Positions 2,565 through 29,339 of a stretch of 64,000 nt of DNA are shown one piece after another. Under the pieces are notes generated by a model that saw only the letters and a list, made by a program, of their open reading frames with translations, ran no database searches and was not told the DNA's origin. Origin of the DNA: Burkholderia savannae. GTDB taxonomy: Bacteria > Pseudomonadota > Gammaproteobacteria > Burkholderiales > Burkholderiaceae. Position 1 is the first letter of the stretch. Every line of letters begins with the position of its first letter. The stretch covers positions 2,760,255-2,824,254 of the forward strand of contig NZ_CP013418.1 in NCBI RefSeq assembly GCF_001524445.2. The letters run 5' to 3'. The translations under genes and the position numbers were made by a program.

Positions 2565-2595
2565 CGCGGGCCATTCTCCGATCGACGAGGTGACG

Positions 2596-3543: not shown

Positions 3544-3586
3544 GCGACACGTTTCGGATTCACTTGTTTCGGGCTGGAGTTACCGC

Positions 3587-4726: not shown

Positions 4727-4737
4727 GGGCCGCGACG

Positions 4738-10528: not shown

Positions 10529-11437
10529 ATGAATCAACCCGCGAAGTCGACGGACCCCGTGTTCGTCATGCCCGTGCGCCGCGACCTGCGCTTCAATCTG
10601 CCGGTCGAGCGCGCGACGGATTGGCATGGGCAGGGCTCGCAAGTCTCGCACTTCTTCAATGCGCTGTCGCTGCTGTTTCCGGCGGGCGAGCGTTTCTTCA
10701 TGGATTCGGTGCGCAACTACCGCGACCGAATCGACGATCCGGTGCTGAAGAAACAGGTGCTCGGCTTCATCGGCCAGGAGGCGATGCACACGCGCGAGCA
10801 CGTCGAGTACAACGATCTGATGCAGGCGCACCGGTTGCCGGCGCGCACGATCGACAGGCGCGTGTGGAAAGTGACGGGCTGGATGAAGAAGGTGCTGCCG
10901 CATTCGGTGCAGCTCGCGCACACGGTCGCGGCCGAGCACTATACGGCGATGCTGGCCAACTGGCTGCTGACCGAGCCGTCCGCGCTGGCCGGCTCGCATG
11001 AAGGCTACAAGCAGATGTGGCAGTGGCACGCGCTCGAGGAGACCGAGCACAAGGCGGTGTCGTTCGACGTCTGGAATGCGGTGATGAAGCCAGGGCCGAA
11101 GCGATACCTGATCCGCATCGGCGTGTATTTGCTGACGACGATGACGTTCTGGCCGAACGTGTTCCTGATCCATTCGCAGTTGATCCGTTGGGACCGCACG
11201 TCGGACAAGAGCGTGCGCGGCCTTTGGCGCGTGGTCGGCCTGCTGTACGGGCCGCGTCGTGGACTGTTTCCGAAGATCGCGCGCGAGTGGCTGAGTTTCC
11301 TCCGGCCGGGCTTCCATCCATGGGACTACGACAACCGTCATCATCTCGCGCGCGTCGACGGCATCGTCGCGGCGACGCAGGCGCGCGCGGCGCTAACGCT
11401 GCCGCCGATCGAGCTCGACAGCGCGGAGCCGGCGTGA
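10529..11437 (+). CDS. Predicted metal-dependent hydrolase (PF10118-type)
   Basis: A 302-residue protein of the uncharacterised family annotated as predicted metal-dependent hydrolase. It begins after AGGAGA (10518-10523) with MNQPAKST. Candidate metal ligands are spread over helices: FIGQEAMHTREHVEYN, VAAEHYTAML and WHALEETEHKAVSFD, an E-x-x-H arrangement reminiscent of ferritin-like di-metal proteins. A hydrophobic segment (YLIRIGVYLLTTMTFWPNVFL) suggests membrane association. Substrate and role are unknown. Confidence 0.8.
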   Translation: MNQPAKSTDPVFVMPVRRDLRFNLPVERATDWHGQGSQVSHFFNALSLLFPAGERFFMDSVRNYRDRIDDPVLKKQVLGFIGQEAMHTREHVEYNDLMQAHRLPARTIDRRVWKVTGWMKKVLPHSVQLAHTVAAEHYTAMLANWLLTEPSALAGSHEGYKQMWQWHALEETEHKAVSFDVWNAVMKPGPKRYLIRIGVYLLTTMTFWPNVFLIHSQLIRWDRTSDKSVRGLWRVVGLLYGPRRGLFPKIAREWLSFLRPGFHPWDYDNRHHLARVDGIVAATQARAALTLPPIELDSAEPA

Positions 11438-11900: not shown

Positions 11901-11947
11901 ACTAATTCACCCAATCCGCAGCTTATTGGGATCAGCCATTATTTTCC

Positions 11948-12002
11948 TTGTAAAGATCCCGAAATGGACTAATATTGTTAGTAGATTCATTTTGAGACTA
12001 AC
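11948..12002 (+). promoter_or_regulatory. Promoter and likely autoregulatory operator of the Xre/RES pair
   Basis: A -35-like TTGTAA (11948-11953) and -10-like TAATAT (11970-11975) are 16 bases apart. Half-sites ACTAA (11968-11972), TTAGT (11978-11982) and ACTAA (11997-12001) form two overlapping inverted repeats across the -10 and start region. A further inverted pair GGGATC (11928-11933)/GATCCC (11955-11960) flanks the -35. Antitoxin or antitoxin-toxin complexes usually repress from such sites. Confidence 0.6.
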
Positions 12003-12006
12003 TGCC

Positions 12007-12426
12007 ATGTCCCGTCCTGCTTTGAAGCCGCTGCCGAATCCGCCGGAGGCGACGGTCGCGCAAATGTCGGCGGCCGGCCTGCGCGCGTTCTTCAACATCG
12101 CGCGCGACTGGGAGCTGTCGACCGACGAGCAGATCGTCCTGCTGGGCTCGCCCGGCCGCTCGACGTTCTTCAAATGGAAGGCGTCGCCGCAAACCGCGCG
12201 CCTCACGCACGATACGCTCGAGCGCCTGTCGCTCGTGCTCGGCATCTACAAGGCGCTGCAGATCCTGCTGCCGCAGCCCGCCGCGGCGGACGCGTGGGTC
12301 AAGCGGCCGAACGACGCCGCGCCGTTCAACGGCAGGCGCGCGCTCGACCGGATGCTCGCGGGGAACGTCAGCGATCTCGTCGCGGTGCGCCAATATCTCG
12401 ACGCGACGCGAGGCGGATGGGCGTGA
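12007..12426 (+). CDS. Xre/MbcA/ParS-type antitoxin of a RES-Xre module
   Basis: A 139-residue protein with the features of antitoxins paired with RES toxins. It has an N-terminal helix-turn-helix-like part (LSTDEQIVLLGSPGRSTFFKWK) and the C-terminal toxin-binding domain ending DRMLAGNVSDLVAVRQYLDATRGGW, close to the usual 'G...dL..V..YL' signature. It should bind DNA at its own promoter and block the active site of the neighbouring toxin. The end overlaps the toxin start by ten bases, which implies coupled translation. I took ATG 12007, since the upstream in-frame ATG at 11926 would lie in the promoter. Confidence 0.88.
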   Translation: MSRPALKPLPNPPEATVAQMSAAGLRAFFNIARDWELSTDEQIVLLGSPGRSTFFKWKASPQTARLTHDTLERLSLVLGIYKALQILLPQPAAADAWVKRPNDAAPFNGRRALDRMLAGNVSDLVAVRQYLDATRGGWA

Positions 12427-13124
12427 TCTTTCCCGAACGGCAGACGAACTGGCCCGTCGCGGCGCTCGACTGGGCACCCGCCTACCGCGTGATCCCCACG
12501 CGCTTTCCCGCGATCAATCTGTTCGACCGCGTCGCGTCGGCCGAGGATTTCGACGCGCTGTACGCGCTCGAGGCGTTGACCAACGATCGCGTGCGTACCG
12601 AGGTGGGCGTGCTCGGTCTCGTGCCGCCCGACGAGCGGCGCTTCGGGCCGGGCTACGGGCCGATCATGGCCGCGTTCACGCACCTGAATCCGAACGGCAG
12701 CCGTTTCTCCGACGGCAGCTACGGCGTGTTTTATTGCGCGCACACGCGCAACACGGCGATTGCGGAGACGCGCTATCACGCGTCGCTGTTCCTCGCGGCG
12801 ACGAAGGAGCCGCCGATGCGTCAGCAGATGCGTCTCTACACGGTGGCCGCGCACGGCGAGGTCGCCGACCTGCGCGCGTGGCGCGAGCGCGATCCGGCGT
12901 TTCTCGATCCCGCCGACTATGCAGCCGGGCAGGCGTTCGGCCGTGCGGTGCGCGAGGCGGGCGGCGCGGGCGTCGCGTATCCGTCGGTGCGGGACCCGGG
13001 AGGCGAATGTCTCGCGGCGTTCAGGACGCTGCTGCTGCGCGATTGTCACCACGCCGCGTATCTCGAGTACAACTGGAACGGCGCGGCGATCGACGCGGTG
13101 TTCGAGCTGAGTCAGATCGGCTGA
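12417..13124 (+). CDS. RES-domain toxin (NAD+-degrading)
   Basis: A 235-residue RES-domain protein. Members such as MbcT degrade NAD+ and stop growth unless bound by the partner antitoxin. The conserved residues are visible: Arg24 in AYRVIP, Arg96 in GSRFSDGSYGVFYCA, Glu117 in TAIAETRYH and Ser190 in GVAYPSVRDPGG. The name RES comes from this Arg-Glu-Ser set. Length is in the normal range, and nothing suggests inactivation. It lies directly downstream of and overlapping its antitoxin. Confidence 0.9.
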   Translation: MGVIFPERQTNWPVAALDWAPAYRVIPTRFPAINLFDRVASAEDFDALYALEALTNDRVRTEVGVLGLVPPDERRFGPGYGPIMAAFTHLNPNGSRFSDGSYGVFYCAHTRNTAIAETRYHASLFLAATKEPPMRQQMRLYTVAAHGEVADLRAWRERDPAFLDPADYAAGQAFGRAVREAGGAGVAYPSVRDPGGECLAAFRTLLLRDCHHAAYLEYNWNGAAIDAVFELSQIG

Positions 13125-16775: not shown

Positions 16776-18365
16776 ATGGCCAGACACATCGTTCAAGCAA
16801 TCCAGTCTCATGCGTTCGCCACGCCGTATAAATGCGCGTTGTCCGATTCTCGCGGCGATCTCGGCTACGCCGATCTCGACAGCTTCAGCACCCGTTTCGC
16901 GATGCGCCTGCAGGATCTGGGCTGCCGCCCGGGAGATCGCGTCGTGATGCTCGCGAGCCGCCGCGCGTTGCTCGTCGCGGCGATCGTCGGCGTGTTCAAG
17001 GCCGGCTGCGTGCACGTGCCGCTCGATCCGCGCATGCCGACGGACCGCCTGCGATACATCCTGCACGACGTCGCGCCGGCGCTCGTGATCGCCGACGAAG
17101 ATCTGACCGAAGCGCTCGAGCACGCGTTGCCGTCGGCCGCGCCGATCCTGCCGCTGAGCGAGCTCGAGCGGCTCCTCGCCGACGCAGATTCGGCGCGGCT
17201 CGACGCGCTCGTGCAGCCGTTGCCGCTGCCGCCGTTCGACGAAACCGCGATCGCATATTGCATCTACACCTCCGGCTCGACAGGCCGCCCGAAGGGCGTG
17301 CTGATCAACCACCGCAGCATCGCGGATTTCTTCGAAGGTACGCGCGCCGTCTACGACGTCACGTCGCAATCGAGATGCGCGAGCTTTTCGCCGCTGCATT
17401 TCGACGTGTATCTGATGGACATGATGTTTCCGCTCGCGCAGGGCGCGTCGCTGTACGTGCACGACGACGTGAACGCGCCTGACTTGCTGTTCGACGCGAT
17501 CCGCGCGCACGACGTCACGCATTTCTCCGCGTGGGGCATGATGCTCGGCCTGATCGCGCAGGCGGACGCGTTCGAAGCCGCGCCGCTGCCGCACCTGAAG
17601 ACGATCCTTACAGGCACCGACGTGCCCGACGTGAAGACGATCCAGCGCTGGCTGAAGAAAAACGCGGGCGTGCAGGTGATCAACGCGTACGGTCCGACCG
17701 AGGCCACATGCGCGGCGGTCGCGCACGTGATCCGAGAGGTCGAGCCCGAGCGGCGCGCGCTCTATCCGATCGGCAAGCCGCTCGAGCACGTGAGGGCGTT
17801 GCTCGCCGACGAGCGCGGCGAGCGGATCACGGCGCCGGGTGTGCCGGGCGAGCTGATGATCGGCGGCACGCAGGTCATGCAGGGCTATTGGAACTTGCCC
17901 GAGGAGACGGCGGCGCGGCTCGTTCGCATGAACGGCGTGCCGTTTTATCGAACGGGCGACGTCTGCACGTATCTCGCCGACGGCAGCCTGTATTACATGG
18001 GCCGCAAGGATAACGAAGTGAAGATCGGCGGTTACCGGATTCATCTGAGCGAAATCCAGCGGGTCGTCAACGGCGTGCCGCACGTGCATGGATCGGAGGT
18101 CGTGCTGCTCGAATCGCGCTACGGCGAGACGCTGCTTGCCGCGGGCGTGCTGCTCGAGCGCGGCGCGTCGCTCGACGCCGATTCGAAGGTCGACGAAATC
18201 AGGCGGCGCCTCGCGGCGGAGCTTCCCGCCTACATGGTGCCTCGCCACGTCATGGTTCTCGAGCAGTTTCCGCAGTTGTCATCGGGAAAGACGGATCGCA
18301 AAGCGCTTCTGTCGATATTGCAACACCGCGTCAATGAAAGTAACCAGGAGGAAGTGAATCCATGA
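16776..18365 (+). CDS. Stand-alone amino-acid adenylation enzyme (NRPS A domain)
   Basis: This 529-residue A domain activates an amino acid with ATP and loads it onto the carrier protein encoded next. Core motifs are A3 YTSGSTGRPKG (near 163), A4 FSPLHFDVYLMDMM (near 206), A5 NAYGPTEATCA (near 303), A7 YRTGD, A8 GRKDNEVKIGGYRIHLSEIQ and A10 SSGKTDRKAL with the catalytic lysine near 504. Hand alignment with GrsA gives the pocket D-V-M-S-L-G-A-C-A-K. The Asp at the first position indicates an alpha-amino acid, and the remaining residues suggest a small or medium, fairly non-polar side chain. I do not recognise this code. There is no condensation or carrier domain in the same chain, as with the A-T-halogenase sets of coronamic acid and syringomycin chlorothreonine. 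The stop overlaps the carrier gene start. Confidence 0.93.
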   Translation: MARHIVQAIQSHAFATPYKCALSDSRGDLGYADLDSFSTRFAMRLQDLGCRPGDRVVMLASRRALLVAAIVGVFKAGCVHVPLDPRMPTDRLRYILHDVAPALVIADEDLTEALEHALPSAAPILPLSELERLLADADSARLDALVQPLPLPPFDETAIAYCIYTSGSTGRPKGVLINHRSIADFFEGTRAVYDVTSQSRCASFSPLHFDVYLMDMMFPLAQGASLYVHDDVNAPDLLFDAIRAHDVTHFSAWGMMLGLIAQADAFEAAPLPHLKTILTGTDVPDVKTIQRWLKKNAGVQVINAYGPTEATCAAVAHVIREVEPERRALYPIGKPLEHVRALLADERGERITAPGVPGELMIGGTQVMQGYWNLPEETAARLVRMNGVPFYRTGDVCTYLADGSLYYMGRKDNEVKIGGYRIHLSEIQRVVNGVPHVHGSEVVLLESRYGETLLAAGVLLERGASLDADSKVDEIRRRLAAELPAYMVPRHVMVLEQFPQLSSGKTDRKALLSILQHRVNESNQEEVNP

Positions 18366-18622
18366 AGACCGAAACGATGTTGATTCAGATTCTGGAGAGC
18401 GTGATCGGCGTCAAGAAGGTGACGGGCGATACCCGTTTTCTGGATATCGGCGGCAATTCGCTCAATCTCGTCGAAGTGCTGAAGCAGATCAAGGCGAAAA
18501 CGGGCGTCGCGCCGTCGCCGAGGCTGTTTTTCGACAAGACGCGCTCGACGGTGGCGGCGTTGAGCGGCGAAATCGACGCACTGCGCGAGCTCAGCGGCGC
18601 CGAGGCCCCGGTCGCGGGCTGA
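18362..18622 (+). CDS. Stand-alone peptidyl/acyl carrier protein
   Basis: An 86-residue carrier protein starting inside the stop of the adenylation gene. The phosphopantetheine site is FLDIGGNSLN, with Ser33 as the attachment residue. Helix 2 (NLVEVLKQIKAKTG) and the LFFDKTRSTVAAL end are typical of NRPS-type carriers (T domains). It should hold the activated amino acid as a thioester for the halogenase encoded next. A phosphopantetheinyl transferase is not in this window. Confidence 0.93.
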   Translation: MKTETMLIQILESVIGVKKVTGDTRFLDIGGNSLNLVEVLKQIKAKTGVAPSPRLFFDKTRSTVAALSGEIDALRELSGAEAPVAG

Positions 18623-18716
18623 TTCCGGAGGGCGTTTCACGAGCCGCGAAAGCGGCGGCCGCGACAAGCGGATTTTTCAAGACATGGCTCTTTACGCCAT
18701 ATTTAGGAGAACTGAG

Positions 18717-19622
18717 ATGCAAAAGCGTTTTCACATGTCGGAAGCCGAAAAGAAATCTTTTTACGAGAACGGCTTCGCCGGCCCGTTCACGCTGTACGAA
18801 CCGGAGGAGATGACCCGCGTCTGGAACGAAGTGCGGATGGACCTGCTCGATGCGACGAAGGCGGCGTTCCCGAACAGCCGGCTCAACTATGACCGTCATC
18901 TCGACATGCCCGATCTGAACCAGATCATTAGTCATCCGAAGATCGTCGATCGGATCTCGAGCATCCTCGGCCCGGACGTGCTGAGCTGGCGAACCGAGTG
19001 GTTTCCGAAATACCCGGGCGACGAAGGTACCGACTGGCACCAGGCCGAGAGCTTCGTGGAGTTCGAAGGCACCGAGAAGCTCGAGCCGACGGCGGCGGAA
19101 GAAGGGCGGCCGTGGGAGCTGACCGCGTGGATCGCGATGAGCGAGGCGACGAAGGAGAACGGCTGCCTGAAGCTGATGCCGGGCAGCCACCGCACCTGGT
19201 TCTTCGACGAGAAGCGCAACATCCCGTTCGAGCCGGAGAACTTCAACAAGCGCGTGCTCGACGACGGCCAGAAATCAGGCTTCTACGGCTACGACTACGA
19301 GAAGCTGAAGCTCGATCCGAGCTGGAAGCCGGACGAGTCGCGCGCGGTGCACATGGAAGTGAAGCCGGGCCAGTTCTTCATCTTCACGTCGCGCTGCATG
19401 CATGGCTCGAATCCGAACACGAGCAAGGATTCGGTGCGTTTCGGCTGGGCGACGCGCTTCGTGCCGACGCACGTGAAGGTGTATTCGGGTCAGGAGTCGT
19501 TCCACCACTTCGGCGAAGTGCTGCCGCTCGACCGCTACTCGACGGTGTTGGTGGCGGGCGAGGACCGCTATGGCCATAACCGCGTGACGAAGCCGCTCGC
19601 CGCAGTTGCGGCGATCGCGTAA
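18717..19622 (+). CDS. SyrB2-type non-haem Fe(II)/2-oxoglutarate-dependent halogenase
   Basis: A 301-residue enzyme beginning at ATG 18717 after AGGAGA (18705-18710). It looks at first like a phytanoyl-CoA dioxygenase, but the iron-binding motif is His108-Gln-Ala110 (EGTDWHQAES). Hydroxylases have Asp or Glu at the third position, and the Ala leaves room for chloride, as in SyrB2 and CmaB. The second His is His229 (SRCMHGSNPN) and the 2-oxoglutarate arginine is Arg247 (WATRFVP). Long stretches follow SyrB2 as I remember it: NYDRHLD, ILGPDVLSWRTEWFPKYPG, GFYGYDY and SWKPDESRAVHM. SyrB2-like enzymes chlorinate unactivated carbons of an amino acid tethered to a carrier protein. The adenylation and carrier genes just upstream supply such a substrate. 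Confidence 0.94.
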   Translation: MQKRFHMSEAEKKSFYENGFAGPFTLYEPEEMTRVWNEVRMDLLDATKAAFPNSRLNYDRHLDMPDLNQIISHPKIVDRISSILGPDVLSWRTEWFPKYPGDEGTDWHQAESFVEFEGTEKLEPTAAEEGRPWELTAWIAMSEATKENGCLKLMPGSHRTWFFDEKRNIPFEPENFNKRVLDDGQKSGFYGYDYEKLKLDPSWKPDESRAVHMEVKPGQFFIFTSRCMHGSNPNTSKDSVRFGWATRFVPTHVKVYSGQESFHHFGEVLPLDRYSTVLVAGEDRYGHNRVTKPLAAVAAIA

Positions 19623-19640
19623 GCGAAGGAAGGCGCCGAC

Positions 19641-20423
19641 ATGAATGCATGCGAGGCCCGCTGGTTCCTGTTCGGCGCCGACGAACGGAAACCCGATGTA
19701 CGAATCCGGCTGTTCTGCTTTCACTACGCGGGCAGCGGCGGCTCAATCTTCAGGAACTGGGTCGAGTCGCTGCCGGACGGCGTCGAGCTTGTCGCGGTGC
19801 AGATGCCCGGCCGCGAGAACCGGCTGAACGAGCCGCTGTTGCACTCGATGGACGAAGTCGCGTCTCCGCTCGTCGACGCGCTCGCTCCGCTGCTCGACCG
19901 GCCGTTTGCGTTCTTCGGGCACAGCACGGGCGCGCTGATCGGTTTCGAGGTCGCGCGGGTACTGCGCGCTCGCGGATATCCGCAGCCGAGGCTTCTGATC
20001 GCGTCCGCGCAGAACGCGCCCGACGTGAAGCCGGAAGTGATTCGGCATCGGTTGTCGGATGCCGAGTTCGTCGAAGTGCTGCGCGGCTGCAACGGCACGC
20101 CCGACGCGATTCTGCAGGACCCGGCGCTGCTCGAGCTGCTGCTGCCGCGGATTCGCGCGGACGGCGCCGTGTTCGAGACGTACCGCTACGAGCCACAAGC
20201 GCCGCTCGATTGCCGGATCGTCGTCTTTCACGGCGTTCACGACGGCCTCGTGCGCGAAGACGGGCTCGCACGCTGGGCGAGCGAGACGCGGCAAAGCTTC
20301 GCACGCTACCGGTTTGCCGGCGACCACTTCTTCATTCACGACGAAGAGGCGTCGGTACTCGACCACATCAACCGCGAGCTCGAGCCGCTCTTGAGCGATG
20401 CGAGCTCCACTCTAATCGGATGA
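19641..20423 (+). CDS. Type II thioesterase (alpha/beta hydrolase) 1
   Basis: A 260-residue GrsT/TEII-type hydrolase. The N-terminus RIRLFCFHYAGSGGSIFRNW and VAVQMPGRENRLNEPL are signature strands. The nucleophile elbow is FFGHSTGA with Ser95, and the likely Asp and His are in FHGVHDGLV and AGDHFFIHDE. Such enzymes release acyl groups from carrier proteins, for editing or product release. Related alpha/beta hydrolases (SyrC, CmaE) act as aminoacyl shuttles but use Cys, while this one has Ser. Starts 18 bases after the halogenase stop. Confidence 0.9.
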   Translation: MNACEARWFLFGADERKPDVRIRLFCFHYAGSGGSIFRNWVESLPDGVELVAVQMPGRENRLNEPLLHSMDEVASPLVDALAPLLDRPFAFFGHSTGALIGFEVARVLRARGYPQPRLLIASAQNAPDVKPEVIRHRLSDAEFVEVLRGCNGTPDAILQDPALLELLLPRIRADGAVFETYRYEPQAPLDCRIVVFHGVHDGLVREDGLARWASETRQSFARYRFAGDHFFIHDEEASVLDHINRELEPLLSDASSTLIG

Positions 20424-20430
20424 CAGACAA

Positions 20431-21114
20431 ATGGCGCAGTGGAATTCAGATGACGAGCTGTTCGCGCTGATGCGCGCCGAGCTCTCGACCTGCCCCGTCA
20501 GCGACGTGATGGAGCAGCTCGGGTTCGCGTACCCGATGCTGCCGCCGGAGATCCGCCCGCTGCGGCGGGACATGGTGATGATCGGCCGCGCGATGCCCGT
20601 GCAGGACGAGCCGCCCGTGCCGCACGGCGGTCTCAAGCGTTACGACGCGAAACCGTTTGGACTGCTGTTCGAATCGGTCGAGGCGTTGCGTCCGGGCGAG
20701 GTCTACGTCGCGAGCGGCGGCCCGACGGCTGTCGCGCGGCTCGGCGATCTGCTTGTCACGCGCGCGCGCAATCTCGGTGCGGCGGGTGTCGTGTTGAACG
20801 CGCACGTGCGCGACGCGAACGCGATTGCCGATCTGAACCTGCCGGCGTTCGCGCACGGCACGTACGCATACGGGCTGCAGGGGCGCCACAACGTCGTCGA
20901 CTATCGCTGTTCGATCACCGTTGGCCACGTGCGAATCCGGCCGGGCGACCTGATCTTCGGCGACGGTGACGGCGTCTGCGTGATTCCGCGCGAAGCGGAG
21001 CAGGAAGTGATCAACCGCGCGATCGCGAAGAACCGGCTCGAACGCAAGGTTCGCGACGCGATCGTCGAAGGCCGCAGCGTCGTCGACGCATTCAATCAAT
21101 ACAACGTCATGTGA
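20431..21114 (+). CDS. RraA-fold HMG aldolase/oxaloacetate decarboxylase-like protein
   Basis: A 227-residue protein of the RraA / 4-hydroxy-4-methyl-2-oxoglutarate aldolase family. The family active-site pattern is present: ARLGDLLVTRARNLGAAGVV with Gly105-Asp106, followed by NAHVRDAN with Arg127-Asp128. Enzymes of this fold bind a divalent metal and cleave or form C-C bonds of 2-oxo acids, or decarboxylate oxaloacetate. RraA proper inhibits RNase E, but this copy keeps the catalytic residues and lies inside a biosynthetic operon. An aldolase/decarboxylase role, or handling of the pyruvate enolate, is therefore more likely. The substrate is unknown. Confidence 0.82.
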   Translation: MAQWNSDDELFALMRAELSTCPVSDVMEQLGFAYPMLPPEIRPLRRDMVMIGRAMPVQDEPPVPHGGLKRYDAKPFGLLFESVEALRPGEVYVASGGPTAVARLGDLLVTRARNLGAAGVVLNAHVRDANAIADLNLPAFAHGTYAYGLQGRHNVVDYRCSITVGHVRIRPGDLIFGDGDGVCVIPREAEQEVINRAIAKNRLERKVRDAIVEGRSVVDAFNQYNVM

Positions 21115-21128
21115 GGAGCGCAACAGCG

Positions 21129-22073
21129 ATGAAAGCGAGCTACGTGTGGAAGAACGGCGAACTGGTGCCGTGGGAGCGTGCGCAGGTGCACGTGATGAGC
21201 CATGCGCTGCATTACGGAACCAGCGTGTTCGAGGGCGTGCGCGCCTACGAGATCGGCGAGAAGGCGGCGATTCTCTGCGGCCGCGAGCACTTCGAGCGCT
21301 TGCTGTTCAGCTGCAAGGTCGCGCGGATTCCATCGCCGATGAGCGTCGGGCAGTGGATGGAGGCGACGGTCGAGACGCTGCGCGCGAACGGTCAGCGCAG
21401 CGCGTACATCCGGCCGCTCGTCTATCGCGGCGCGGGCGAGTCGCTCGGGCTCGACGCGCGGCAATGCCCGGCCGAAGCGCTGCTCGTGACGATGCCGTGG
21501 GGCGCGTATCTCGGCGACGAGGCGCTGGAGCAGGGTGTCGACGTGCAGGTCAGCAGCTGGCGGCGCAACGGCGCGGGCGCGGCGAGCACGCTCGCGAAGA
21601 TCGGCGGCCAGTACGTCAACGGCCAGGCGATCGTGATGGAGGCGCACGAGAACGGGATGAGCGAGGGCATCGCGCTCGACGCGAACGGTTTCGTGAGCGA
21701 AGGCAGCGGCGAGAACGTGTTCCTCGTCTACAAGAACGAGATCTTCACGCCGTCGATCGGCAGCAGCATCCTGAGCGGCATCACGCGCAATTGCGTGATT
21801 CGGATCGCGCGCGACCTCGGCTACACCGTGACCGAGACGAGCATCCCGCGCGAGATGCTTTATCTCGCCGACGAGATCTTCTTCACCGGCACCGCGGTCG
21901 AGATCTGTCCGGTGCGCTCGGTCGACAGGATGTTCGTCGGCGGCGGCAAGCGCGGCCCCGTGACGAAGGCGATCCAGGATCAGTACTTCGGCATCGTGCG
22001 CGGCACGCACGCGGACAAATGGAACTGGCTTACGCCCGTGCCGGTGCCGGCGCGCGACGGAGCGCGGTCATGA
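21129..22073 (+). CDS. Class IV (branched-chain-type) PLP aminotransferase
   Basis: A 314-residue fold-type IV aminotransferase close to IlvE in length and motifs: HALHYGTSVFEGVRAY at the N-terminus, STLAKIGGQYVNGQ with the PLP lysine Lys157, EGSGENVFLV, and ILSGITRNCVI for phosphate binding. It exchanges an amino group between glutamate and a 2-oxo acid. Starts at ATG 21129, 15 bases after the RraA-like stop, behind GAGGAG. In this operon it probably aminates the 2-oxo acid made by the pyruvate aldolase, or deaminates the amino-acid precursor. A role in ordinary Ile/Leu/Val synthesis is less likely. Confidence 0.88.
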   Translation: MKASYVWKNGELVPWERAQVHVMSHALHYGTSVFEGVRAYEIGEKAAILCGREHFERLLFSCKVARIPSPMSVGQWMEATVETLRANGQRSAYIRPLVYRGAGESLGLDARQCPAEALLVTMPWGAYLGDEALEQGVDVQVSSWRRNGAGAASTLAKIGGQYVNGQAIVMEAHENGMSEGIALDANGFVSEGSGENVFLVYKNEIFTPSIGSSILSGITRNCVIRIARDLGYTVTETSIPREMLYLADEIFFTGTAVEICPVRSVDRMFVGGGKRGPVTKAIQDQYFGIVRGTHADKWNWLTPVPVPARDGARS

Positions 22074-22912
22074 GCGCGCGCGAATCGGCGGCCGCTTCGC
22101 CGTGGCTGATCGTCCACGCGGCGCGGGATGCGCGCGTACGGCTCTTCTGCTTTCACTACGCGGGCGCGACCGCGTCGATCTTTCGGACGTGGCCGCGCGG
22201 CTTGCCCGACTGGGTCGAAGTGGTCGCGGTGCAACTGCCCGGCCGCGAGTATCGCCTGGGCGAGCCGCTGATCGAGGACGCCGAGCCGATCGTCGCGGCG
22301 CTCGCGGAGGTCGTGCCGCCGCTGCTCGATCTGCCGTACGCGTTCTTCGGCCACAGCATGGGCGCGCTGATCGCGTTCGACCTCGCACGCCTGCTGCGCG
22401 CGCGCGGCTTCGCCAAGCCTTCGCTGTTCGTCGCGTCGGGCCGCAGCGCGCCGCGTTTTCGCTGGCGGGACGCGGGCATTCAGACGCTGCCCGACGATGC
22501 GTTCATCGCCGCGGTGCGCGACTACAACGGCACGCCCGACGCGCTGATCGCCGATCCGGCGCTGCGCGACCTCTGGCTGCCCCGGCTGCGGGCGGATCTG
22601 ACGATCTCCGCGACGTACCGATACGTCGAAGCGCCGCCGCTCGATTGCCCGCTGCTCGTGCTGCACGGCTCGAACGACGGCCTCGTGAGCGACGCCGGGC
22701 TGTCGGGCTGGCTCGCCGAGACGAGCGGAGCCGCGCGCTACGTCGGTTTTTCGGGCGGCCATTTCTTCATGCACGGCGAAGAAGAGGGCGTGCTCGGCGA
22801 AATCGGCCGCGAGCTGGAGCGTGTGCTCGCACGCGAAGCGGCGGGTGTGCAAAGCGGCATGCGCGGTTCGGCGGCGCGCATGCGTCATTTGACGGAGGAG
22901 AGCGGCATATGA
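22070..22912 (+). CDS. Type II thioesterase (alpha/beta hydrolase) 2
   Basis: A 280-residue second TEII-type protein, starting with an ATGA overlap on the aminotransferase stop. RVRLFCFHYAGATASIFRTW, VAVQLPGREYRLGEPL and the elbow FFGHSMGA with Ser96 are clear; the likely Asp is in LHGSNDGLV and the His in SGGHFFMHGE. It resembles the first thioesterase strongly enough to suggest an old duplication. Two such enzymes for one carrier protein suggests distinct jobs, for example removal of misloaded groups versus release of product. The last 25 residues are an Arg-rich extension. Confidence 0.88.
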   Translation: MSARESAAASPWLIVHAARDARVRLFCFHYAGATASIFRTWPRGLPDWVEVVAVQLPGREYRLGEPLIEDAEPIVAALAEVVPPLLDLPYAFFGHSMGALIAFDLARLLRARGFAKPSLFVASGRSAPRFRWRDAGIQTLPDDAFIAAVRDYNGTPDALIADPALRDLWLPRLRADLTISATYRYVEAPPLDCPLLVLHGSNDGLVSDAGLSGWLAETSGAARYVGFSGGHFFMHGEEEGVLGEIGRELERVLAREAAGVQSGMRGSAARMRHLTEESGI

Positions 22913-23802
22913 AGAACAAATCATCGCGCACGCGCGTGGCGATCCTCGGGTCGGGCAGCATCGGGCTCGATCTGATGTTCAAAGTGAAGGCATCCGAACA
23001 ATTCGATCTGAGGTTCGTCGTCGGGCGTAATGCGCAGAGCGACGGACTCAAGCTCGCGCGCAGCTGCAACGTCGAGACGTCGAGCGACGGTCTCGACTTC
23101 CTGAAGGAGAACGAGGGGGCGTACGACCTCGTGTTCGACGCGACGTCGGCCGCCGCGCACAAAATCAACAATCGCTTCTTCTCGGACGCGGGCAAGTTCG
23201 TGATCGACCTGACGCCCGCGAAGCTCGGCCGCCTGTGCGTGCCGTGCATCAATCTGGACGACATGGGCGCCGAGCAGAACGTGAACCTCATCACCTGCGG
23301 CGGGCAGGCGAGCCTGCCGCTTGCGTACGCACTGAAGCAGGCGGTCGACGAGATCGAATACCTGGAGGTGGTGTCGGCGATCGCGTCGCGCAGCGCCGGC
23401 ATCGCGACGCGCGAGAACATCGACGAATACATGACGACGACCGAATACGCGCTCGCGAAATTCAGCGGTGCGAAGAAGACGAAGGCGATCCTCAACATCA
23501 ATCCCGCCGAGCCCGGCGTGCGGATGCAGACCACGCTCTATGCGTACGCGCGCTATCGCGATTTCGATCGGGTGCGTGCGTGCGTCGCCGGCATGGTCGA
23601 GAAGGTTCGCGAATACGTGCCCGGCTATCGGCTTGTCGTCGAACCGCTCGAAAGCCAGGGCAGGATCACGATCGGCCTGACGGTGCGCGGGCGCGGCGAC
23701 TACCTGCCCGAGTACGCGGGCAATCTGGACATCATCAATTGCGCGGCGCTCGCGGTCGCCTCGCATCGACATGCAACCGCCAGACAAGGAGCCACACAAT
23801 GA
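22909..23802 (+). CDS. Acylating acetaldehyde dehydrogenase-like enzyme (MhpF/DmpF family)
   Basis: A 297-residue CoA-acylating aldehyde dehydrogenase-type protein overlapping the preceding stop (ATGA). The NAD-binding loop VAILGSGSIGLDLM is at residues 10-23. The catalytic cysteine is Cys130 in NLITCGGQAS, and the C-terminal dimer and channel region is LNINPAEPGVRMQTTLYAYA. In meta-cleavage pathways this enzyme works in a channelled complex with the aldolase encoded next and interconverts aldehyde and acyl-CoA. Here no catabolic genes flank it. It may run in the reductive direction on a carrier-bound or CoA-bound thioester to give an aldehyde. Confidence 0.9.
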   Translation: MKNKSSRTRVAILGSGSIGLDLMFKVKASEQFDLRFVVGRNAQSDGLKLARSCNVETSSDGLDFLKENEGAYDLVFDATSAAAHKINNRFFSDAGKFVIDLTPAKLGRLCVPCINLDDMGAEQNVNLITCGGQASLPLAYALKQAVDEIEYLEVVSAIASRSAGIATRENIDEYMTTTEYALAKFSGAKKTKAILNINPAEPGVRMQTTLYAYARYRDFDRVRACVAGMVEKVREYVPGYRLVVEPLESQGRITIGLTVRGRGDYLPEYAGNLDIINCAALAVASHRHATARQGATQ

Positions 23803-24842
23803 TACTGATCAGCGATGCGACCTTGCGCGACGGCAATCACGCGATTCGCCATCAACTGAGCGCTGCGCAGATTCATGCGTATGCGCGCGCGGCCGACGAG
23901 GCCGGCATCGACGTCGTCGAAGTCGGGCACGGCAACGGTCTCGGCGGTTCGTCGTGCCTGCTCGGACAGACGCCCATCGGCGATCGCCTGATGCTCGAGA
24001 CCGCGCGCGCCGCGCTGCGCACGAGCCGGCTCGGCGTGCATTTCATTCCCGGGCTCGGCAAGGCGGCGGACATCGCGCTCGCGCTCGAGATCGGCGTCGA
24101 CGTCGTGCGCGTCGCGACGCATTGCACCGAAGCGAACGTGTCCGCGCGCTTCATCGAGCAGACGCGACACGCGGGCCGCACAGCGTTCGGTGTGCTGATG
24201 ATGTCGCACATGGCGCCGCCCGACGTGCTGCTCGCGCAAGCGAGGCTGATGGAGCGTTACGGCGCGCAGGCGGTCGTGCTGATGGACAGCGCCGGCTACT
24301 CGACGCCGTCGCTCGTGCGCGCGAAGGTCGAGCGCCTCGTCGACGGCCTCGATATCGACGTCGGCTTTCATGCGCACAACAATCTCGGGCTCGCGGTCGC
24401 GAACAGCCTCGTCGCGCTCGAGGCAGGCGCGCGCATCGTCGATGCCTGCGTGAAAGGCTTCGGCGCGGGCGCGGGCAACACGCAGCTCGAGACGCTCGTC
24501 GCCGCGATGGAACGCGAAGGGCACGGCGCGCGAACGACGTTCGAGCGCGTGATGACGCTCGCGCGCAGCACCGAGGCTTTCCTGAATCCGAAGACGCCGC
24601 ACATCCAGCCGGCGAACATCGCGAGCGGCCTGTACGGCCTCTTTTCCGGCTATGTGCCGCACATCCAGAAGGCGGCGCAGGAGTTCGGCGTCAACGAGTT
24701 CGATCTGTACAAGCGGCTCGCGGAACGCAAGCTCGTCGCCGGCCAGGAGGACATCATCATCGAGGAGGCGAGCCGTCTCGCGCGCGAGCGGGACGTGCAG
24801 CGCGCGAGCGACGGCGTGCGGATTCGCGAGCTGTCCGCGTGA
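23799..24842 (+). CDS. 4-Hydroxy-2-oxovalerate aldolase-like enzyme (MhpE/DmpG family)
   Basis: A 347-residue class II (metal-dependent) pyruvate aldolase overlapping the dehydrogenase stop. The active-site segment DATLRDGNHAIRHQL supplies Arg10, Asp11 and His14. The metal histidines are His191 and His193 in GFHAHNNLG. The C-terminal communication domain (ANIASGLYGLFSGYVPHIQKA) that binds the partner dehydrogenase is present. The reaction is reversible: aldehyde + pyruvate gives a 4-hydroxy-2-oxo acid. Coupled genes and an intact interface imply a channelled pair. In this setting synthesis of a 4-hydroxy-2-oxo acid for the aminotransferase is attractive. Confidence 0.92.
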   Translation: MILISDATLRDGNHAIRHQLSAAQIHAYARAADEAGIDVVEVGHGNGLGGSSCLLGQTPIGDRLMLETARAALRTSRLGVHFIPGLGKAADIALALEIGVDVVRVATHCTEANVSARFIEQTRHAGRTAFGVLMMSHMAPPDVLLAQARLMERYGAQAVVLMDSAGYSTPSLVRAKVERLVDGLDIDVGFHAHNNLGLAVANSLVALEAGARIVDACVKGFGAGAGNTQLETLVAAMEREGHGARTTFERVMTLARSTEAFLNPKTPHIQPANIASGLYGLFSGYVPHIQKAAQEFGVNEFDLYKRLAERKLVAGQEDIIIEEASRLARERDVQRASDGVRIRELSA

Positions 24843-24881
24843 GCGCGGACGCATTTCACACGATCGAACGAGGAGGGAATC

Positions 24882-25298
24882 GTGACAGGTTTGAGCGAAC
24901 GAGGTTTTGGTGCATGGGATCGAGTCGAGCGCGAAGTGCTGACCGATCGGATCGAGCGTCAGGTCGTCTCGGGCGACGCGCTGACGCTGGCGAAGCTGTT
25001 CCTGAAGAAAGGCGCGTTCGTCGGAACGCATTCGCATCCGAACGAGCAGTTCACCTACATCCTCGAAGGACGCCTGCTGTTCCGTTACGGCGAGCGCCTC
25101 GAGCACGAGGTCGAGGTGGGGCCCGGCGAGATCCTGCATCTTCCGGCGAACGTGCCGCACAACGCGTTGTGTCTCGAGGACGCGGTCGATCTCGACGTGT
25201 TTACGCCGCCGCGGGCCGACTGGCTCGCGCCGGACGGCAATCGCTACTTCGCCGGCGCACCGGCCGCGGCTTCGTCCGCGCCGGCGGCCGGCCGATGA
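24882..25298 (+). CDS. Small cupin-domain protein
   Basis: A 138-residue single cupin starting at GTG 24882, well placed after AGGAGGG (24871-24877). The two cupin motifs are GTHSHPNEQFTYILEGRLLFRYG (His, His, Glu ligands) and PGEILHLPANVPHNALC (final His), so a metal site is probable. Small cupins act as isomerases, dioxygenases, lyases or ligand sensors, and the function here is open. Its place near the end of the biosynthetic operon suggests a late tailoring step or stabilisation of a reactive intermediate. Confidence 0.85.
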   Translation: MTGLSERGFGAWDRVEREVLTDRIERQVVSGDALTLAKLFLKKGAFVGTHSHPNEQFTYILEGRLLFRYGERLEHEVEVGPGEILHLPANVPHNALCLEDAVDLDVFTPPRADWLAPDGNRYFAGAPAAASSAPAAGR

Positions 25299-25335
25299 AC
25301 GACCACCATCGAAGCCGACGAACCGAGGAGGCGCC

Positions 25336-25938
25336 GTGCTCATCCAGGATGCATTGCTCAAGATGTCGTTATACGTGTCGCTCGTGCTGATCGTGCCGGG
25401 GCCGACGAACACGCTGCTGCTGTCGTCGGGCCTGAAGGCCGGCCTGCGCGGCACCTGGCACCTCGTGATCGCGGAGGCGCTGGGCTATGTCGTCGCGATC
25501 TCGCTATGGGGGTTCTTCCTGCTGTCGGTGGCGGCGAGCCGGCCCTGGCTCTTCGGCGCGATCAAGCTGCTGAGCGCCGCGTACATCCTGTGGCTCGCGG
25601 TCAAGATGTGGACGAAGAGCCGCGCGCTGCACGAGCTGACCGCGGGGCCGATCAGTTTCGCGGATCTGTTCGTCGCGACGCTGATGAACCCGAAGGCACT
25701 GCTGTTTGCGAGCACGATGTTTCCGCTAGAAGCGTTCCGGTCGCTCAGCTACTTCGGATGGGCGGTCGTCGTGTTCCTGATCGTGCTCGCGCCGATCGGC
25801 GTCGGCTGGTCGAGCCTGGGCGGGCTGCTGACGTCGCAGCGCTCGTGGGCCGCGCATACGTCGACGTTCATGCGCTGCGCGTCGCTCGTGCTCGCGACGT
25901 TTTCTGGATCGCTCGCGTATTCGGTGTTGGGGCGCTGA
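25336..25938 (+). CDS. LysE/RhtB-family amino-acid exporter
   Basis: A 200-residue inner-membrane protein with five to six hydrophobic helices, starting at GTG 25336 after GAGGAG. IVPGPTNTLLLSSGLKAGLRG is the LysE-family signature (PGP...G...G..G), and LMNPKALLFASTMFP is the second conserved loop. Members export amino acids and amino-acid analogues by proton exchange. As the last gene of the halogenase operon it probably exports the product and provides self-protection, which supports an amino-acid-like product. Confidence 0.9.
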   Translation: MLIQDALLKMSLYVSLVLIVPGPTNTLLLSSGLKAGLRGTWHLVIAEALGYVVAISLWGFFLLSVAASRPWLFGAIKLLSAAYILWLAVKMWTKSRALHELTAGPISFADLFVATLMNPKALLFASTMFPLEAFRSLSYFGWAVVVFLIVLAPIGVGWSSLGGLLTSQRSWAAHTSTFMRCASLVLATFSGSLAYSVLGR

Positions 25939-26014: not shown

Positions 26015-27046
26015 TCATTCGGAGATGTAGCCCTCCGCCAGGAAACCGAGCTGCTTCGCCTTGTTCGCGCTCGTCTTGATGTGGCTGCTATTCATCTTCT
26101 TGTTGATCGACGTGAACAGCTGATAGACCGCATGTTCGTCGAGCTGTAGTTCCTCGGCGACGTGGCGCGCGTTGCCGCCCCGGCCGACGAGCCGCAACGC
26201 GACGAGTTCGCGACGGCTCAGCGACATTTCTCGGGCAAGCATCTGGCGCTGCGCCGTGACTTTCCATTCGAGCATCTCGGTCGCTAGTCCGCGCAGCGTT
26301 CGCCGGTTGCGCCAGATGATTTCTTCGCCTTGCGCGGGCGGCAGCGACGAACTGACGTGCAACAAACCGATCGTGTCGTCGTCGCGGCGGTGTGCAGGAA
26401 AGAACACGTTGCTGGCCAGGCCGAGCAATTGCGTCTGCTGATTCAGCCAATGATCGGACGGCAGCGTTGCGAGCGTTGACGCACGCAGCGGGCGCGTGTC
26501 GTTGCGTGCATGCGCGATGGCGGGATCGTTCAAATACCAATGGCGATGCACATAACGGTGTGCCCAAACGGGCGTTCCGCCGATTAATAATTCATGGTTC
26601 TTCAAGTTTCCGGTTTTCTCGTCGATTCTGAAGTAATGGTAAAAACAGTTTGTTGCACCACATTCGGCGGCTGTGTTGCGCATTACAGTCAGTAAGCCGC
26701 TTTCGCTGACGCATTCAGACGCGAATTCGGGTTGAATCGCCTTGTATTCGGTGGATTCCACGGTGTTTTCGGGAACGCCAACTACTGCTCGATATAGACT
26801 TTCGAGCTCCACCGAATAAGGATCGTGTTCGATGAACGACGTAACGGTCGCGCCGTCGAATAAATCCAGACGTTGCACGAACGATGGCTGGCGCGGCGCC
26901 GCGTGGTGTCGCTCGAGCAAGTATCCTTGGGCCGCGTCGCCACATATCCTGAGCGATATCTGTTTGTCGCCGACAACGCCGTTGCGTTCCTGGGTGACGT
27001 CCATTCGCGCGTGTTCGATAGGAAATACGGTGCGATTTCGAGCCAT
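26015..27046 (-). CDS. LuxR-type quorum-sensing-like regulator (no synthase gene in window)
   Basis: A regulator of up to 343 residues, convergent with the halogenase operon. An autoinducer-binding domain is visible around residues 110-250: NCFYHYFRI, then VWAHRYVHRHWYLNDPAIAH, which keeps the aromatic residues and the Asp-Pro of the acyl-homoserine-lactone pocket. The C-terminal LuxR helix-turn-helix is LSRRELVALRLVGRGGNARHVA, followed by HAVYQLFTSINKKMNSS. About 95 N-terminal residues have no counterpart in usual 240-residue LuxR proteins; the true start may be internal. The gene is more AT-rich than its neighbours. No LuxI-type synthase is in the window, so it may respond to a signal made elsewhere or to the cluster product. 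Confidence 0.82.
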   Translation of the reverse strand: MARNRTVFPIEHARMDVTQERNGVVGDKQISLRICGDAAQGYLLERHHAAPRQPSFVQRLDLFDGATVTSFIEHDPYSVELESLYRAVVGVPENTVESTEYKAIQPEFASECVSESGLLTVMRNTAAECGATNCFYHYFRIDEKTGNLKNHELLIGGTPVWAHRYVHRHWYLNDPAIAHARNDTRPLRASTLATLPSDHWLNQQTQLLGLASNVFFPAHRRDDDTIGLLHVSSSLPPAQGEEIIWRNRRTLRGLATEMLEWKVTAQRQMLAREMSLSRRELVALRLVGRGGNARHVAEELQLDEHAVYQLFTSINKKMNSSHIKTSANKAKQLGFLAEGYISE

Positions 27047-27797: not shown

Positions 27798-28652
27798 TTA
27801 GTGGTCTGCCTGGTGCTGCGAGCGCCGGCCGCGGACCGCGGAAATCCACGAACCCGGCGTGATGCCGTAAGTGCTCTTGAAGTGCCGCGACATATGGCTT
27901 TGATCGGAGAAGCCCGCGTCGGTGGACGAGGTCGACAGCGATTCGCCTTCCATCAACAGTTTGCGCACGAGATTGAGCTGCCGTTGAGTGCGAAAGCGGC
28001 TCGGGCTCGTGCCGAACAGCGTGCGGAACTGGCGGGCGATTGTCCAGCGGTCGAGCCCCGAGGCGTGTTCGAGCGCGTCCATCGAGATCGCCGTGTGCGG
28101 GCGGGACGCGATGATATCGCGTATGCGCGTCAATTCGGCCACGGCGAGCGTGCCGGTCTTGGGCGCGCCGCGGTTCGCGGCGGCGGCCGTCAGCAGGTTC
28201 GCGACGGCGACGGCGATGTCGAAGCGGGACAGGTTGTCGATTTCCTCGTCCAGGTTCCAGACGCCGGCTGCGAGTCCTTCGGCGACGGCGGGCGCCTGAA
28301 CGATCGGTGAGCGGACGAACGGAAGCATGCGTCCGCCAAGGGCTTCCTGGACGAGCGCGGGGTCAACGTAGACGATCCGGTAGCCGAAGCCTTCGTCGGT
28401 TCCCGCGCGGCCGTCGTGCAGTTCGTCCGGGTGAAGGATATGGCACTGCCCCGGCAGGCAGTGGTGGGTTTCGCCGAGATAGCGGAAGGTCTGCACGCCC
28501 GAGAGCGTGATGCCGATCGCGTACGTGTCGTGACGATGGGGCGTGAACGCGTGATCGAGGAAGTGCGCCTCTGCGCGCTCGATGCCCGTGGCGCCGGAGC
28601 CGATCCGAATGTGGTTCCTGTCGGGCGCGGTGTCGCGTGCACAATCGTTCAA
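27798..28652 (-). CDS. AraC-family regulator of the adjacent LysE-type exporter
   Basis: A 284-residue regulator. I chose the TTG start at 28652 because GGAGG lies five bases upstream. The longer ATG frame (to 28724) would overlap the divergent exporter gene. The N-terminal cupin-like sensor has AHFLDHAFTPHRHDTYAIG and HILHPDELHDG. The C-terminal pair of helix-turn-helix motifs is ISMDALEHASGLDRWTIARQF and SSTDAGFSDQSHMSRHFKSTYG. AraC/LysE divergent pairs usually form a ligand-induced export system, so its ligand is probably an amino acid. Confidence 0.87.
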   Translation of the reverse strand: MNDCARDTAPDRNHIRIGSGATGIERAEAHFLDHAFTPHRHDTYAIGITLSGVQTFRYLGETHHCLPGQCHILHPDELHDGRAGTDEGFGYRIVYVDPALVQEALGGRMLPFVRSPIVQAPAVAEGLAAGVWNLDEEIDNLSRFDIAVAVANLLTAAAANRGAPKTGTLAVAELTRIRDIIASRPHTAISMDALEHASGLDRWTIARQFRTLFGTSPSRFRTQRQLNLVRKLLMEGESLSTSSTDAGFSDQSHMSRHFKSTYGITPGSWISAVRGRRSQHQADH

Positions 28653-28712
28653 GACAGCCTCCGTGGCGCTTCCATAAGCTACCTGTTCAAAAAATGGTGC
28701 ATTGGAGCCTCG

Positions 28713-29339
28713 ATGGTAAACCAAGTCGATCTAGTTTCGGATATGTTGCGCTCACTTCTGGCCCTGCTCCTTGCGGCGACCGTGGTGATGGGCAGCCCCG
28801 GGCCGTCGACGGTCAGTGCGACGGCGATGGGCGCGTCCTACGGGGTGCGCAGGTCGCTCAAATATGCTTGGGGCCTCATTGCCGGCACGGTCGCCGTGCT
28901 GCTTCTCGTGTCGACGGGCGTGACGGCTTTCGTGATGTCGATGCCGAACGGCGCGAGGATGCTCAACATCATTTCCGCTGTCTACATTCTCTATCTTGCG
29001 TACAAGATTGCGACTGCGCCACCGCTCGACGCGCGCAAAGGAGACGTCTCGTCTCCCGCGTTCAAGGGCGGCTTCCTTTTGGCCGTCGCCAATCCGAAGG
29101 CGTACATCGCGATCGGCGCGGTGTTTGCAGGGACGACGCTCGTTGCCAGCAACTATGGCCTGGATGCTGCCGCCAAAATTGCCCTGCTGAGCGTGATGAT
29201 CATCGTTATCCATCTCGGCTGGCTGCTGGCAGGCGTGTCGTTGTCCCGTTTCCTGCACGATCCGGTTGCGTCCCGCATCATCAATGTTTCCTTGGCGGCG
29301 ATATTGGTGCTTGTTTCGCTGATTGCGCTATTCGAATGA
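28713..29339 (+). CDS. LysE/RhtB-family amino-acid exporter
   Basis: A 208-residue membrane protein with about six hydrophobic segments, starting at ATG 28713 behind GGAG. TVVMGSPGPSTVSATAMGASYG and LAVANPKAYIAIGAVF are the LysE-family loops. It is divergent from the AraC gene, with 60 bases between the two chosen starts, where both promoters must lie. This is the second LysE-type exporter within 3.5 kb of the first (25336-25938), but the sequences are clearly different. Confidence 0.88.
   Translation: MVNQVDLVSDMLRSLLALLLAATVVMGSPGPSTVSATAMGASYGVRRSLKYAWGLIAGTVAVLLLVSTGVTAFVMSMPNGARMLNIISAVYILYLAYKIATAPPLDARKGDVSSPAFKGGFLLAVANPKAYIAIGAVFAGTTLVASNYGLDAAAKIALLSVMIIVIHLGWLLAGVSLSRFLHDPVASRIINVSLAAILVLVSLIALFE

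Follow-up and report, generated by a model that had tools for sequence, protein, structure and literature searches.

A barbamide-type halogenase cassette linked to RraA-like and pyruvate aldolase genes in Burkholderia savannae: a candidate pathway to a small leucine-type acid

Among the halogenases that modify amino acids, BarB1 and BarB2 trichlorinate leucine carried on BarA (PMC8407142), CytC3 dichlorinates aminobutyrate and SyrB2 chlorinates threonine (PMC8407142, PMC3252866), according to the portions of these papers that were available. The genes of the marine barbamide pathway, barA-barB1-barB2-barC-barD of Moorena/Lyngbya, comprise a carrier protein, carrier-dependent halogenases, a thioesterase and a stand-alone adenylation enzyme, and continue into nonribosomal peptide synthetase (NRPS) and polyketide synthase (PKS) genes (PMC3252866, available portion). 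Here we describe a cluster of eleven genes in a 64,000-nucleotide stretch of the Burkholderia savannae contig NZ_CP013418.1 (positions 2,760,255 to 2,824,254; assembly GCF_001524445.2; hereafter the window). The barbamide genes are the closest characterised relatives found, and the same four kinds of protein are encoded in the window; unlike the barbamide locus, the eleven genes carry no domains of a downstream NRPS/PKS assembly line. We read the cluster as two joined modules that would make and export a small chlorinated, or formerly chlorinated, leucine-type acid, with a rough probability of 0.55.

A barbamide-type halogenation cassette

The cluster is an operon-like run of eleven plus-strand genes (16776-25938). 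Its ten junctions consist of four 4-nt overlaps, five gaps of 7-39 nt and a single gap of 94 nt, the widest, between the carrier protein and the halogenase. The order is adenylation enzyme (A), carrier protein (T), halogenase (Hal), thioesterase 1 (TE1), RraA-like protein, branched-chain-type aminotransferase, thioesterase 2 (TE2), MhpF, MhpE, cupin and LysE, with starts adopted at 18717 for the halogenase, 22909 for MhpF and 23799 for MhpE. The genes, and the regulator that follows them, are:

16776..18365, + strand: stand-alone amino-acid adenylation enzyme, BarD-like, code DVMSLGACAK (AMP-binding Pfam domain, 3.1e-79; AA-adenyl-dom 367.7 bits, cut-off 317.4)
18362..18622, + strand: stand-alone carrier protein, PP-binding (phosphopantetheine Ser33 within GGNSL)
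18717..19622, + strand: Fe(II)/2-oxoglutarate halogenase (PhyH; TIGR01762; HxA motif H108/A110, second His H229; groups with BarB1/BarB2)
19641..20423, + strand: thioesterase 1 (Thioesterase domain, GHSTG)
20431..21114, + strand: RraA-fold class II pyruvate aldolase/decarboxylase-like protein (D106-X20-R127-D128)
21129..22073, + strand: branched-chain-type aminotransferase, IlvE-like, class IV (Aminotran_4/IlvE)
22070..22912, + strand: thioesterase 2, BarC-like (Thioesterase domain, GHSMG)
22909..23802, + strand: MhpF/DmpF-like acylating aldehyde dehydrogenase (acetylating acetaldehyde dehydrogenase TIGR03215, 397.5 bits, cut-off 282.25)
23799..24842, + strand: MhpE/DmpG-like pyruvate aldolase with altered aldehyde pocket H81, F82, V132, F282 (HMGL-like and DmpG_comm)
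24882..25298, + strand: small single-domain cupin (Cupin_2; a relative pairs with MhpF-MhpE in the halogenase-free operon L181)
25336..25938, + strand: LysE-type exporter (LysE domain)
26015..27046, - strand: LuxR-type regulator with autoinducer-binding domain (directly after the cluster, opposite strand; linked to it at other loci)

A preliminary description, made from the DNA alone, had proposed a compact eleven-gene cluster in which A, T and a halogenase with an HxA iron site form a carrier-dependent cassette for a small amino-acid-like product. The eleven plus-strand genes carry the domains it named, and the domains, the motif and the adjacency of the three genes back the cassette. The gene content it gave was also correct, but the two thioesterases it placed side by side are separated by the RraA-like and aminotransferase genes. 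Pfam scans of the eleven proteins returned no condensation domain, as had been stated, and no other NRPS/PKS assembly-line domain.

The halogenase scored 436 bits against TIGR01762 ('chlorinating enzyme'; cut-off 226.3). Its motif H108-Q109-A110, in which Ala replaces the iron-binding Asp/Glu, agrees with the Ala110 originally reported and is invariant across a 16-row halogenase alignment. With a carrier protein and an A partner encoded beside it, the enzyme can very confidently be predicted to chlorinate a carrier-bound substrate. Its top PDB matches were CytC3 and SyrB2; bit scores were 295 to CytC3 and 480 to BarB1. The window genome (7.43 Mb) contains one halogenase match at E <= 0.001 and no tandem pair.

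In the Moorena locus (L042, 14 kb), the cassette T-Hal-Hal-TE-A matches the window at 51% identity for T, 66 and 68% for the two halogenases, 44% for TE2 and 49% for A; RraA, the aminotransferase, MhpF/E, the cupin and LysE, all present in the window, have no match there. A halogenase tree of 41 rows, for which the tool gave a long-branch warning, placed the window sequence in a clade of 21 rows (support 98/95). Together with the Moorena BarB1/BarB2 pair (98/98) and an Acidobacteriota/Sorangium branch, this clade forms a group of 28 rows (96/85), outside which fall ten other Burkholderia halogenases (100/98). On the cassette comparison and the tree, the SyrB2-type assignment first proposed was replaced by a BarB-type one, the halogenase, T, TE and A all lying closer to their barbamide (leucine) counterparts than to SyrB2. 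The expectation that annotation pipelines would hide the pathway held only in part: Pfam gives PhyH, but NCBIfam and NCBI records give 'chlorinating enzyme', and antiSMASH and a B. thailandensis study (in its available portion) give barbamide-like.

The halogenation half of the cluster is of this known barbamide kind, already noticed in two species. The available portion of the B. thailandensis study states homology of BTH_II0562-0574 to barbamide enzymes, reports that BTH_II0564 ('BarB2', log2 7.2) and BTH_II0563 ('peptide synthetase', log2 7.1) rise on entry into stationary phase, with a value of 2.29 for BarB2 in the proteome table, and names the cepacian cluster BTH_II0542-0552 beside these genes (PMC12322963). 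For B. plantarii KACC 18964, antiSMASH cluster 18 is given as 33% similar to barbamide (PMC11153758, available portion). Judged by these descriptions, both are very likely the same cluster as that in the window. BTH_II0562-0574 was taken as orthologous because a 'BarB2' gene and a nearby exopolysaccharide cluster occur in both; in the window the latter is represented at 345-8557 by genes for glycosyltransferases and a Wzc-like kinase, which probably form a cepacian-like exopolysaccharide cluster. Neither a product of the B. thailandensis and B. plantarii clusters nor a mention of RraA or MhpF/E was found in the accessible portions of the open-access literature.

A scan of named genomes yielded 13 loci. 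The A code of the window, DVMSLGACAK, is identical at nine related loci (L031-L037, L040, L043); L038 has one change (DVMSLGACGK) and Moorena has DAMALGGCAK. This comparison leaves out L039 and L041, where the A genes are cut off at the locus end. Leucine is the best guess for the substrate because nine relatives share the window's code unchanged and because of the barbamide-type kinship, and on these sequence grounds we consider it likely.

The halogenase is 90-93% identical between the window and three other Burkholderia loci (L033-L035), compared with 61-86% for the other cluster proteins, which suggests unusually slow evolution of the halogenase.

Conservation of the cluster and of an RraA-linked core

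Halogenase orthologues of at least 90% identity were found in 6 of 65 Burkholderia genomes, with no other match above 47%. In the same six, identity is at least 83% for MhpE and at least 77% for RraA, and no other match exceeds 43% for MhpE or 36% for RraA. Halogenase, MhpE and RraA thus occur together, a co-occurrence of halogenase and aldolase that the preliminary description had proposed to look for. All eleven genes are matched at five other Burkholderia loci (L031-L035) and one from Ramlibacter (L043), a recurrence which argues that the cluster is more than a chance assembly; a second Ramlibacter locus (L036) matches ten of the eleven, lacking a match only to the aminotransferase. By comparison, no match to RraA, MhpF, MhpE or the aminotransferase was seen in 13-20 kb around each of 16 other Burkholderia halogenase places, these being the ones fetched of the 18 next-best in the genus, in line with the earlier view that the combination of such a halogenase with MhpE/MhpF and RraA is unusual. 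Several of these 16 neighbourhoods carry TE or LysE matches (27-50%). A family-level scan found the halogenase at E <= 1e-100 in 8 of 398 genomes, five belonging to this clade and three at 57-58% identity.

Relatives of the LuxR gene (50-56%) lie beside the cluster at five of the seven other betaproteobacterial loci (L033-L036 and L043); L031 has a 58-residue match, and none was found in 20 kb of L032. A scan for promoters and terminators gave results at or below shuffled expectation.

Outside the betaproteobacteria, RraA follows the halogenase at all five loci compared: Breoghania (L037), Angelobacter of the Acidobacteriota (L038), an alphaproteobacterium (L039), Roseobacter (L040) and Rhodobacter (L041). 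TE1 follows the halogenase at four of these (not L038) and TE2 at all five. No MhpF match was found at any of them; in place of MhpF/E, a LeuA-like protein of 415-424 residues is encoded next to the core. In an NCBIfam scan of four of these proteins, the matches to 2-isopropylmalate synthase models extend as far as about position 389 of 516. By Pfam, all five have the catalytic and following domains and lack the allosteric LeuA_dimer domain; as a control, the window genome's housekeeping LeuA does have it. Directly after the LeuA-like gene, a luciferase-like monooxygenase fused to a GNAT acetyltransferase is encoded in L040 (14561-16399; domains scanned) and L039 (14513-16339).

At L037, L039, L040 and L041 a leucyl-tRNA synthetase (LeuRS)-like gene (copies L061-L064) directly precedes A. 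Relative to housekeeping LeuRS, at positions set by what we take to be the E. coli residue numbers, these proteins have no C-terminal domain, no longer carry the editing Asp and show changed leucine-pocket residues, the pocket remodelling being conserved among them. The idea that they are self-resistance copies is weakened accordingly, a remodelled pocket and a missing editing Asp marking them as divergent paralogues. Full LeuRS genes are also present in the genomes of L037, L040 and L041; the L039 bin yielded no copy over the cut-off besides the one in the cluster. In one Burkholderia genome (G017), a single divergent LeuRS-like gene lies some 0.7 Mb away from the cluster.

In a protein database, 1368 halogenase relatives (E 1e-60) and 904 RraA relatives (E 1e-40) were found. 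Of the listed halogenase rows, 56 combine an identity of at least 70% with a contig of at least 5 kb, and 19 of these share the exact longest-contig size with a listed RraA row, compared with a jittered expectation of 0.11 on average and 2 at most. Such matching sizes are an indirect sign that halogenase and RraA are linked across the database. The taxa with the pathway would include Burkholderia, Ramlibacter, alphaproteobacteria, an acidobacterium and the sources of many further database proteins. Four other loci with halogenases at 52-58% (L044-L046, L048) have different neighbours.

The RraA-like protein and the MhpF-MhpE-cupin module

The residues D106-X20-R127-D128 of the RraA-like protein, the D-X20-R-D motif, are kept in the window and at all 12 loci tested. 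In 4-hydroxy-4-methyl-2-oxoglutarate/4-carboxy-4-hydroxy-2-oxoadipate (HMG/CHA) aldolase, the available portion of the source describes the motif Arg (Arg-123) as stabilising the pyruvate enolate and the Asp (Asp-124) as binding the metal (PMC5065237). The window protein scored 50.8 bits against HMG/CHA aldolase 3NOJ; it shares family and motif with that enzyme and with RraA, and differs from them in its biosynthetic setting and in scores below the family cut-offs. RraA relatives at 43-44% occur without other cluster genes in three other genomes, and L170 gave a further RraA match at 28%. The position of the gene beside a predicted leucine halogenase and an IlvE-like aminotransferase is suggestive because the 4-hydroxy-4-methyl-2-oxo acids that its known relatives cleave share their carbon skeleton with oxidised leucine. 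By this analogy we tentatively suggest that the protein may act on the 2-oxo acid of a leucine-type skeleton.

MhpF and MhpE form the same protein pair as DmpF-DmpG, MhpF-MhpE and BphJ-BphI. The metal and catalytic residues R17, D18, H21, H200 and H202 of DmpG are kept in the window MhpE as R10, D11, H14, H191 and H193; unlike the known pairs, that of the window has an altered pocket and lies outside any degradation operon. Relative to DmpG the changes are L88H, L89F, F139V and Y291F, and an altered pocket was also seen at all seven other cluster loci tested. At DmpG positions 88 and 291, His and Phe are present in 6 of 6 Burkholderia cluster copies, and Leu and Tyr in all 24 non-cluster copies checked, which argues that MhpE is not a catabolic copy. 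The best 120 listed relatives of MhpE (8000 candidates scored) have Phe in 120 and His in 119, and the altered-pocket proteins among the matches listed include some named from Pseudomonas, Trinickia, Xenorhabdus and Marinomonas.

According to the available portion of work on BphI, Y290F abolishes stereocontrol, and the variants L87N/Y290F and L87W/Y290F cleave (4R)- but not (4S)-4-hydroxy-2-oxopentanoate (PMC3962088). BphI 87/290 were equated with DmpG 88/291 by an offset of one residue, so this natural subfamily of pyruvate aldolases is altered at both positions engineered in BphI to invert stereochemistry. The window residue being His and the engineered one Asn, (4R) selectivity of MhpE is an extrapolation.

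The module also occurs without a halogenase. At L181 (6862-11324), MhpF-MhpE-cupin (63, 68 and 57%) are encoded with a 130-residue protein and a thiamine pyrophosphate (TPP) enzyme; at L180 (7914-13112), MhpF-MhpE (58 and 63%) are encoded with a short-chain dehydrogenase, a 127-residue protein and a TPP enzyme. These two operons represent a pathway separate from the halogenase cluster. At L169, MhpF-MhpE (51 and 47%; pocket H and F) are preceded by glucose-1-phosphate cytidylyltransferase, cytidine diphosphate (CDP)-glucose 4,6-dehydratase and RfbH, and followed by an acetolactate-synthase-like protein. The MhpE tree joins the cluster copies and L169, a long branch, against the others (100/100). 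Altered-pocket aldolases thus sit in biosynthetic settings where examined, under the database name 4-hydroxy-2-oxovalerate aldolase. The CDP-sugar and TPP-enzyme settings argue for the anabolic direction, in which MhpE quite probably works.

All three of the RraA, MhpE and MhpF families are best known from catabolism, and they could instead form a clean-up or self-protection branch in which excess product or side products are degraded to pyruvate and acyl-CoA. We think this improbable: the MhpE pocket is unlike that of the 24 non-cluster Burkholderia copies, the same subfamily occurs in the CDP-sugar and TPP-enzyme operons, and no MhpF was found at the alphaproteobacterial loci.

Proposed pathway and alternative readings

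Under the reading of two joined modules, A would load a branched amino acid, most likely L-leucine, onto T, and the halogenase would chlorinate the side chain of the bound amino acid, most likely at the delta-methyl. A thioesterase would release chlorinated leucine from T, the IlvE-like aminotransferase could interconvert it with its 2-oxo acid, and the RraA-like protein, as a metal-dependent enolate enzyme, may take the 2-oxo acid of the leucine skeleton as substrate. In the second module, MhpF would convert an acyl-CoA to an aldehyde, to which MhpE, working anabolically, would join pyruvate; the probable result is a (4R)-4-hydroxy-2-oxo acid for processing by the cupin or the aminotransferase. 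The product, an amino or oxo acid of leucine type that carries or once carried chlorine, would be exported by LysE, under control of the LuxR-type regulator. The parts of the first module are recognised from sequence and their activities predicted from it; the roles of RraA and MhpF/E are inferred.

The product is likely to be small and non-peptide, and there is an even chance that it is a leucine antimetabolite. A small molecule not yet discovered is probable, as the genes appear to chlorinate an amino acid resembling leucine and to remodel small acids via carbon-joining enzymes. The cluster offers a testable small pathway with a barbamide-type halogenase outside an assembly line. New elements are a chloroleucine core that is linked to RraA and recurs in several phyla, the MhpF-MhpE-cupin module with its altered pocket and, in place of this module elsewhere, a LeuA that lacks the allosteric domain. 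A bolder and rather doubtful version would have two portable modules fused, one a cassette for chloroleucine and the other an MhpF-MhpE-cupin module that works anabolically and with (4R) selectivity. RraA would then be an enolate enzyme of a new, biosynthetic type, which either exploits the chlorine for ring closure or elimination or places a tertiary 4-hydroxy group on a leucine skeleton, and the products would be leucine antimetabolites of a new class, made by bacteria in several phyla.

Several observations weigh against the two-module reading. RraA falls under the curated aldolase cut-offs (NF006731, 78.6 bits vs 179; TIGR02798, 71.5 vs 304.5). The window A code differs from that of Moorena at 3 of 10 positions, the positions themselves having been placed by what we take to be the GrsA motifs, and the branching order of the three lineages around BarB is not settled by the halogenase tree. 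Barbamide has two halogenases where this cluster has one. The aminotransferase has no match in L036, L039 and L040, so the core does not depend on it, and a further Breoghania locus (L047) has T and a halogenase split over frames (10001-10862) with no RraA match. No convincing lux box was found at the cluster. The antimetabolite proposal is weakened because the LeuRS-like genes are not plain resistance copies, and a LeuRS duplication was rejected for the Burkholderia cluster genomes, each of the six having one full-length copy over the cut-off. The accessible open-access literature records no product or activity for the halogenase clade of the window.

The chlorine could also be transient. RraA might deprotonate C3 of the chlorinated 2-oxo acid, the enolate then displacing chloride to form a cyclopropane, or HCl being eliminated, so that the exported product is chlorine-free. 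We regard this as unlikely, although the RraA motif is present at the 12 loci tested and RraA has no match in the Moorena locus, where barbamide keeps its chlorine. Trichlorination would hinder ring closure or elimination, no CmaC-like or enoyl-CoA hydratase/enoyl reductase (ECH/ER)-like gene is among the eleven, and we know of no RraA-fold enzyme for such chemistry. There are precedents for cyclopropane or alkene formation enabled by halogenation in jamaicamide, curacin A, coronatine and kutzneride (PMC8407142, available portion).

A scheme of the CytC type, in which aminobutyrate, valine or threonine would be the substrate, the free chlorinated amino acid the product, and MhpF/E the source of a norvaline-like precursor for loading, appears similarly improbable. 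In the CytC system A, T, the halogenase and TE presumably stand alone and serve a small amino acid, as here (CytC3 and CytC1 are in the PDB); CytC3 is the top PDB match of the halogenase, and MhpE acting on acetaldehyde would yield a straight C5 oxo acid. However, we know of no aldolase module in the CytC system, the tree and cassette similarity favour BarB/BarD, and the same A code occurs in L037 and L040, which have LeuA-like but no MhpE-like genes adjoining. The CytC system, which makes gamma,gamma-dichloroaminobutyrate in Streptomyces, differs from the window cluster in its aminobutyrate substrate and in a halogenase more distant than BarB1 (substrate: PMC8407142, available portion).

That chlorinated leucine is a barbamide-like starter unit for an NRPS encoded elsewhere in the genome is very unlikely in spite of the cassette's similarity to barA-barD, the eleven genes having no condensation domain (no search was made for NRPS partners in the rest of the genome) and the two thioesterases and exporter fitting a free product.

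Two other gene pairs lie in the window. Near the cluster, at 27798-29339, a divergent AraC regulator accompanies a second exporter of the LysE type, the AraC gene being present in L031 as well, and at 11926-13124 an Xre/MbcA/ParS-type antitoxin followed by a RES-domain protein resembles a type II toxin-antitoxin pair.

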